Shown: in pieces, positions 27,487 through 28,796 of the stretch
How the letters are laid out: each line of letters begins with the position of its first letter
How positions within the stretch are numbered: position 1 is the first letter of the stretch
Source of the DNA: Rhizobium sp.
GTDB taxonomy: Bacteria > Pseudomonadota > Alphaproteobacteria > Rhizobiales > Rhizobiaceae
Length of the DNA: 64,000 nucleotides
NCBI GenBank assembly: GCA_028290545.1
Contig: JAQGJP010000020.1
Coordinates: forward strand, 45,351-109,350
Reading direction: 5' to 3'
Translations under genes and position numbers: made by a program
Notes under the pieces: generated by a model
Databases searched by the model: none
What the model was told of the DNA's origin: nothing
The model's input: only the letters and a program-made list of their open reading frames with translations

Positions 27487-27638
27487 GGGCGCCCTCATTC
27501 GCCAGTATCCGTGATTCTTATGGCATATGCAGAGGAACGAGGGAATGACGGACAAAAGCGGTCCGTCGATTCTCTTGTGAATTACAATCCAGACCCGGAG
27601 ATCCAGCACATCGAGTAATGATTTGAATATGCTTACAT

Positions 27639-27675
27639 TATCCCTTTTTTTGTGATATCTAGCTAAAAAGGGATA
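27639..27675. promoter_or_regulatory. Inverted repeat 1 upstream of nucleotidyltransferase
   Basis: TATCCCTTTTT (27639-27649) and AAAAAGGGATA (27665-27675); perfect 11-bp arms, 15-bp spacer. Confidence 0.7.
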
Positions 27676-27706
27676 GTAGATCTGATGTGGAGGGACCCTC
27701 ATCCCG

Positions 27707-27745
27707 TTATCCCTGCGGCTCGCTGTTTTCGTCAAATAGGGATAA
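27707..27745. promoter_or_regulatory. Inverted repeat 2 upstream of nucleotidyltransferase
   Basis: TTATCCCT (27707-27714) and AGGGATAA (27738-27745); perfect 8-bp arms sharing the half-site of repeat 1; right arm ends 1 nt before the ATG. Confidence 0.7.
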
Positions 27746-27746
27746 C

Positions 27747-28796
27747 ATGTATCATTTCCAGGAGTTGACCAGCGAGCAGATTCGGCAAACGATAGACACC
27801 GAACAGATTTTCACCGAGTGGATGCGCATTTCCAGGGAAATCGATCATCGATTCAGGGGTGCTATGGCCTGGAAATCCGTGTCAGGCAGGAAATATCTTT
27901 ATCGGAAAACCGGTGCGGCCTGGAAATCCCTCGGGCCGCAATCGGAAGACACCGAACGGACGCATCAACAATTCCACGATGGGCGGGATGCCGCTAAAGG
28001 CCGGCTGCGGGCGTTGACGGTTAGGCTTGACGATATGGCGGCGATCAATCGAGCGATGCGGATCGGGCGATTGCCTCTGTTGACTGCGCGTGTCGTCCGT
28101 GCTCTCGGTCGCTCCGGCCTCATTGGTACCGCGTTCGATATCGTTGGCACCAATGCGCTCTATCTTTATGAGCGGCTTTCGGGTGTCCGGATCGCGAGCC
28201 GCCTGCTGGCGACTGGCGATGTTGATCTGATGTTTGATGCCCGCACCAAACTGAAATTGATCGGCGGGAAAAACAAACCCGCCAACCTTATGGCGACGCT
28301 GAAGACCGTCGACAAGTCGTTTCAGCAAACCTCCAAGTTGAGCTTTCGCGCGGCAAACAGGGATGGTTTTCTCGTTGATGTCATCATGCCTGCGAACAGG
28401 GATCGGCTGAAAAACGTAGGAAGAACCGGAATCGGCGGATCGGGTGATGATTTGGTCGCCGTTGAAATCGAAGGGCTGGAGTGGCTGGTCAACAGCCCAA
28501 AGGTGGAAGCCACGATGATTGACGAACGGGGGTATCCGCTGATTTGCTCCTGCCCCGATCCTCGAAGCTTTGCGCTTCACAAGCTCTGGCTCTCGAAGCG
28601 TGAGGATCGCGATCCGCTCAAGCGTATACGCGACCGCCAGCAGGCCGAGCTTGTCAGCACGATGCTCCTCCACCGCCTTCCGCATTTGCGGTTCGACGAC
28701 CCTGCTCTTGGAGCAATCCCAAAAACGCTGCGGGATCAGGCTGAATACCTCAGGGATACATATACTGGCGATCAGCGTGACCAGCCGAACTGGTAG
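27747..28796 (+). CDS. GSU2403-family nucleotidyltransferase fold protein
   Basis: GRKYLYRKTGAAWKSLGPQSEDTE, GTNALYLYERLSGVRI, LLATGDVDLMFD (nucleotidyltransferase DxD), DPRSFALHKLWLSKREDRDPLKRIRDRQQAE. Confidence 0.8.
   Translation: MYHFQELTSEQIRQTIDTEQIFTEWMRISREIDHRFRGAMAWKSVSGRKYLYRKTGAAWKSLGPQSEDTERTHQQFHDGRDAAKGRLRALTVRLDDMAAINRAMRIGRLPLLTARVVRALGRSGLIGTAFDIVGTNALYLYERLSGVRIASRLLATGDVDLMFDARTKLKLIGGKNKPANLMATLKTVDKSFQQTSKLSFRAANRDGFLVDVIMPANRDRLKNVGRTGIGGSGDDLVAVEIEGLEWLVNSPKVEATMIDERGYPLICSCPDPRSFALHKLWLSKREDRDPLKRIRDRQQAELVSTMLLHRLPHLRFDDPALGAIPKTLRDQAEYLRDTYTGDQRDQPNW

Follow-up and report, generated by a model that had tools for sequence, protein, structure and literature searches.

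What are the two inverted repeats for that stand directly in front of a nucleotidyltransferase gene of Rhizobium sp., and which protein reads them? The locus lies on contig JAQGJP010000020.1, in a stretch of 64 kb that was analysed as a whole and is referred to as the window. In the window sequence both repeats are located upstream of the gene and have the half-site TTATCCCT in common. Our favoured explanation, which we hold with a probability of roughly 0.6, is a single-gene, self-repressing nucleotidyltransferase module that occurs on chromosomes, plasmids and phage-like contigs. The argument refers to the following features.

27638 to 27676: inverted repeat 1 (IR1), upstream operator candidate; half-sites TTATCCCT at 27638-27645 and AGGGATA(G) at 27669-27676, dyad at 27657.
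27706 to 27746: inverted repeat 2 (IR2), proximal operator candidate; GTTATCCCT at 27706-27714 and AGGGATAAC at 27738-27746, dyad at 27726.
27747 to 28796, plus strand: nucleotidyltransferase gene, 349 amino acids, family PF12281 (NTP_transf_8), 185.4 bits against a cut-off of 26.3.
27747 to 28082, plus strand: N-terminal domain, residues 1-112, a candidate DNA-binding domain with a predicted helix, three strands and a long helix.
27873 to 27944, plus strand: residues 43-66, which make up most of the predicted three-stranded sheet; of all stretches, this one diverges most closely in step with the operators.
28083 to 28700, plus strand: nucleotidyltransferase domain (residues 113-318); of the usual catalytic motifs it has GT134-135, D158/D160 and D211.

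The arms of IR1 are perfect over 11 bp (TATCCCTTTTT at 27639-27649 and AAAAAGGGATA at 27665-27675). Those of IR2 are perfect over 9 bp, and the right arm directly abuts the ATG at 27747. A first-pass annotation of this DNA had placed both repeats correctly and had described IR2 with 8-bp arms ending 1 nt before the ATG; this last detail has to be amended, as the arms measure 9 bp and touch the start codon. The two repeats are built alike with 23 nt between the two 8-mers, and their dyads are 69 bp apart. TTATCCCT occurs three times in the window, each time at these repeats, whereas shuffled sequences contained it 0.6 times on average and reached three in 2 of 100 cases. Genome-wide work was done by pattern searches in an assembly of 4.7 Mb that is about 81% complete. 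The pattern TTATCCCT-N15..31-AGGGATA matched at IR1 and IR2 only, which answers the suggestion of the first-pass annotation to look for the same motif elsewhere in the genome. IR1 as a candidate is based on relatives of the TTATCCC class, which have the same two-repeat layout. For IR2 the basis is that its geometry is kept in most of 80 relatives and that the pattern is private to the gene in this genome.

The arrangement is neither due to chance nor unique to the window. We scanned the region from -85 to +10 of the start in 80 oriented relatives from Pseudomonadota genomes and viral contigs, including the window gene. Perfect arms of 8 bp or more at a span of 38-46 near the start were found in 82.5% of them, compared with 1.0% for local shuffles and 2.1% for flanking windows. 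A dyad-anchored alignment places two 8-bp half-sites at positions 12-19 on each side, about 32 bp from centre to centre, and the gap between them is constant at 24 nt. T occupies position 19 in 94% and position 18 in 97% of the aligned relatives. The other six bases of the half-site vary by clade, yet they are symmetric in 88-100%, a figure inflated by the choice of the best repeat, which leaves the fixed TT and the constant distance between half-site and dyad unaffected. By hand we named 26 half-site classes, among them TTATCCC, GTTACCCCA, TTTTCCAC, TTTCAGCA, TTTCAACA, GTTCCAACA, TTTTGCCAA and TTATCTATA. Orthologs without repeat conservation had been named in the first-pass annotation as a finding that would speak against its reading; the geometry proved to be conserved, while the letters are not conserved across the family. 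What is observed are DNA elements of fixed geometry at the promoter and start that are private to the gene and change together with it. That the operator preserves its form while its letters change in step with the protein makes the finding more interesting than it had first appeared.

Further evidence comes from the position of the promoter. In the relatives, the -35-like sequence TTGA clusters at -25/-24, -15/-14 and +13 relative to the left arm, with 79 occurrences observed and 30.8 expected. A -10 box at the customary distance of about 17 nt would then fall on the left arm, on the spacer or immediately behind the right arm, and in the first two of these cases the left arm would remain untranscribed. 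These positions bear on the idea that the repeats act as RNA, be it as a translation-controlling hairpin in the 5' leader or as an RNA antitoxin like those of type III toxin-antitoxin systems. A right arm that abuts the start codon and arms of up to 15-16 bp in some relatives would suit such a function. However, in the two largest groups the -35-like boxes imply that transcription begins only past the left arm, and no Rfam match near the threshold was obtained. Moreover, two repeats with one half-site, a constant gap and an invariant TT better fit a DNA-binding protein. We consider an action as RNA very unlikely, and a hairpin or RNA antitoxin was rejected as the main explanation in view of the promoter placement and the lack of an Rfam match. 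The description of the repeats as operator-like, first given for the window alone, gained from the conserved geometry, the restriction to this gene and the overlap with -35-like boxes in relatives. From these sequence comparisons, their role as DNA operators appears well supported.

Which protein would bind there? The repeats could be operators for another protein, either a regulator encoded by the host or an antitoxin at an unlinked locus, with the nucleotidyltransferase as its mere target. In operons with AbiE-type nucleotidyltransferases, a protein other than the enzyme indeed acts as the repressor, at inverted repeats of the promoter (PMC7319586), and the N-terminal domain of the window protein has no recognised DNA-binding fold. 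A host regulator would, however, be expected to have further targets, as is usual, and a site that is stable within a host lineage, and it is therefore disfavoured. In eight of ten genomes of its class the TTATCCCT palindrome was present only at the nucleotidyltransferase gene; in the other two the arms are 7 bp long and no match was obtained. Similarly, the TTTGCCAA palindrome was detected once in each of five carriers and in neither of two non-carriers, so that in the genomes tested no palindrome was found at any other place. The site classes follow protein clades and not host families. On a tree of 73 proteins the eleven multi-member classes need twelve changes, compared with at least 32 after shuffling. 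The TTTTGCCAA class spans four host families (f1, f41, f74 and f126), and f1 in turn holds at least seven multi-member classes, so that sites differ among genomes of one family. One genome (G646) has two copies of the gene with different repeats (L060 and L068; the start codon of L068 is uncertain). An all-against-all comparison of the open reading frames within 1.5 kb on each side of the relatives revealed no conserved partner gene. The most widely shared neighbourhood, a slot between a HerA-like and a transpeptidase-like gene, was shared by eight relatives of four classes; a hidden partner gene was rejected, as we read the slot as an insertion hotspot.

The operators also co-vary with a part of the enzyme itself. 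For all pairs of 66 proteins, the operator difference and the difference within 24-residue windows were regressed on the divergence of the remaining sequence. Residues 43-66 gave the highest partial correlation with operator difference (0.30, the largest value in 200 label permutations being 0.18) and were the best window in 128 of 200 bootstraps, which is suggestive of these residues as the operator-reading part. A separate regulator is hence improbable in our view. The trans-acting or antitoxin-type regulator proposed in the first-pass annotation is not needed: no neighbour is conserved, and the sites go with the protein rather than the host and co-vary with the N-terminal domain of the enzyme.

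The window protein is a member of PF12281, annotated as GSU2403 family nucleotidyltransferase fold protein, well above the cut-off; the gathering score was also exceeded by all 24 relatives scanned, and the window gene is the only PF12281 gene in the assembly. G134, T135, D158 and D160 are invariant and D211 is nearly invariant among these 24 relatives; from the fold we infer that these residues are catalytic. A structure search with the whole protein returned weak matches to nucleotidyltransferase folds such as ILF2/ILF3 and TUT7 (E 0.09 and up). For residues 1-112 there was no family match. The Pfam model of PF12281 spans residues 113-318 only, and neither the N-terminal domain nor the operators are part of the family description. 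The AlphaFold model contains a three-stranded sheet at residues 40-64 between two long helices. An initial guess of an AP2 or integrase-arm fold was abandoned because Foldseek did not support it. Our literature search on PF12281, NTP_transf_8 and GSU2403 retrieved nothing functional.

We propose that an enzyme of the nucleotidyltransferase fold, extended at the N terminus by a helix-sheet-helix domain, controls its own gene. A dimer or a pair of protomers would read the two 8-bp half-sites, which are about 32 bp or three helical turns apart, and the part in contact is probably the three-stranded sheet at about residues 43-66. Occupation of IR2, with assistance from IR1, would cover the promoter and the start of the gene and thereby lead to repression. 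The enzyme would be costly enough to require tight self-control, perhaps as a toxin or a phage-defence effector. Judging from the co-variation and the clade pattern, it is likely that the enzyme itself binds the candidate operators; that binding represses, and that the enzyme needs tight control, we infer from the arrangement.

Several observations weigh against a self-repressing enzyme. For the N-terminal domain, Foldseek revealed no significant likeness to a solved structure, the prefoldin-like and SRP14-like matches being non-significant. A second stretch, residues 238-265, also tracks operator divergence, and the label permutation ignores the relatedness of the proteins. The relatives are non-independent samples, the classes rest on naming by hand, and in a few relatives (L050, L053, L056 and L065) no clear repeat was seen. 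In two relatives described below (L019 and L023) an operator of a foreign class lies beside the gene. Finally, the window's own promoter showed no consensus match, and the step to promoter overlap rests on the relatives.

The proposed module can be compared with AbiE/MenAT, type IV toxin-antitoxin systems with a DUF1814 nucleotidyltransferase toxin and AbiEi or Rv2827c. Both combine a nucleotidyltransferase-fold enzyme with inverted repeats overlapping the promoter. In AbiE/MenAT these repeats are bound by the antitoxin, and between -1 and -131 relative to its start the Rv2827c operon contains two repeat pairs (PMC7319586), much like the four half-sites of the present gene. MenT toxins modify tRNA (PMC11375011). 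By analogy with these systems, a role of the present enzyme as a toxin or phage-defence effector is plausible. In contrast to AbiE/MenAT, the present locus is a single gene without an AbiEi-like partner, its repeats are 8 bp long instead of 23 bp, and the enzyme belongs to PF12281 and not to DUF1814/PF08843. The window protein matched PF12281 only and gave no DUF1814/AbiEii match, nor was it matched by PADLOC. A weak AbiEi match (E 0.011) was obtained in one of 24 relatives and was absent in ten members scanned singly. Membership in AbiE was therefore rejected despite the promoter inverted repeats, as there is no partner gene and no DUF1814/AbiEii match. MNT/HEPN was rejected as well, as no HEPN-domain gene is adjacent. 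If the enzyme represses itself, it would be a one-gene alternative to two-gene autoregulated nucleotidyltransferase modules such as AbiE and MenAT, and its DNA-reading domain would escape current libraries. The 26 natural operator classes matched to proteins would open the reading code to exchange experiments and might provide a small orthogonal set of repressors. The finding also provides a concrete starting point for a Pfam family of unknown function that is carried by plasmids and phages.

The first-pass annotation had located the gene between the atp operon side and priA, had taken it for an accessory insertion and had noted no antitoxin next door, and all three points hold. On one side the gene borders on the 3' end of priA and on the other on a gene that is weakly DUF4345-like; the atp operon follows farther out, and no AbiEi-type gene lies beside the nucleotidyltransferase gene. 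The priA junction with the DUF4345-side gene but without the nucleotidyltransferase gene is present in six of eight congeners (L037-L039 and L041-L043), while a relative from another genus (L013) occupies the same priA end. No close ortholog was found in the eight congeners searched, three of which hold only copies of 27% identity. These distant PF12281-like copies (L005, L006 and L007) lack the start-codon repeat, and the trait thus seems confined to the present subfamily. Relatives with an E value of 1e-20 or better occur in 27 of 398 genomes of the family; at the thresholds used, the numbers are 24 of 398 for the order, 8 of 385 for the class and 18 of 399 for the phylum, all counts taking in the window's own genome. 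Relatives were also found in 236 plasmid records and ten IMG/VR contigs, and INPHARED phages gave no match. In the two IMG/VR contigs examined (L089, 6001-7026; L091, 5995-7035) the gene lies antisense between the tail tape-measure gene and another phage gene, a placement like that of a phage cargo gene ('moron').

Could the repeats then be the ends or recombination sites of a mobile element, with the gene as cargo or enzyme? The gene is mobile and patchy, and a few relatives have further repeats that would agree with this. In L025, L026 and L027 a further inverted repeat is situated just past the stop codon and belongs to the same class as the gene, and an orphan repeat is found on the HerA side of the slot in L019. 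However, the repeats are not dispersed and keep to the promoter and start codon; a downstream copy is absent from most of the genes, that of the window among them. Genome-wide pattern searches ruled out dispersed mobile-element repeats, and a REP/RAYT or insertion sequence (IS)-type element was rejected since the two copies occur at the window gene only, with the same result in relatives. Moreover, no nucleotidyltransferase-fold enzyme is known to recombine DNA. We regard this explanation as highly improbable.

The slot between the HerA-like ATPase gene and the transpeptidase-like gene, identities that follow our own reading of the open reading frames, is occupied by at least eight relatives of four classes in either orientation. 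In L019 (G163:C1:3924612-3924652) a perfect operator of the TTTTCCAC class with 12-bp arms directly follows the stop codon of the HerA-like gene; L023 has a decayed operator of this class at the same place. In both cases its own gene is gone, and the leftover operator adjoins a gene of the TTTCAGCA class in the opposite orientation. This looks like the replacement of one class by another.

Phage immunity repressors of the CI type are self-repressing, have private operators diversified into immunity classes and are located on mobile elements. The candidate repressor resembles them in its proposed self-repression, its private, diversifying operators and its mobile carriage. Unlike them, it includes an enzyme domain, and its control seems limited to its own gene. 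As a tentative extension of self-repression, for which the odds are clearly below even, a toxin-like nucleotidyltransferase might serve as its own transcriptional antidote: a single protein would both act and repress, and operator classes would resemble immunity types. An incoming element of the same class would be silenced by the resident, and one of a different class would be expressed on entry. This would explain the diversifying letters with frozen geometry, the gene as cargo of phage-like contigs and the class replacement in one slot.

Among the plasmid-borne relatives, DQL45_RS21845 (L099) on plasmid pC of the laboratory strain Cereibacter sphaeroides 2.4.1 is 39% identical and has a clear TTTGCCAACT operator 1 nt before its ATG.
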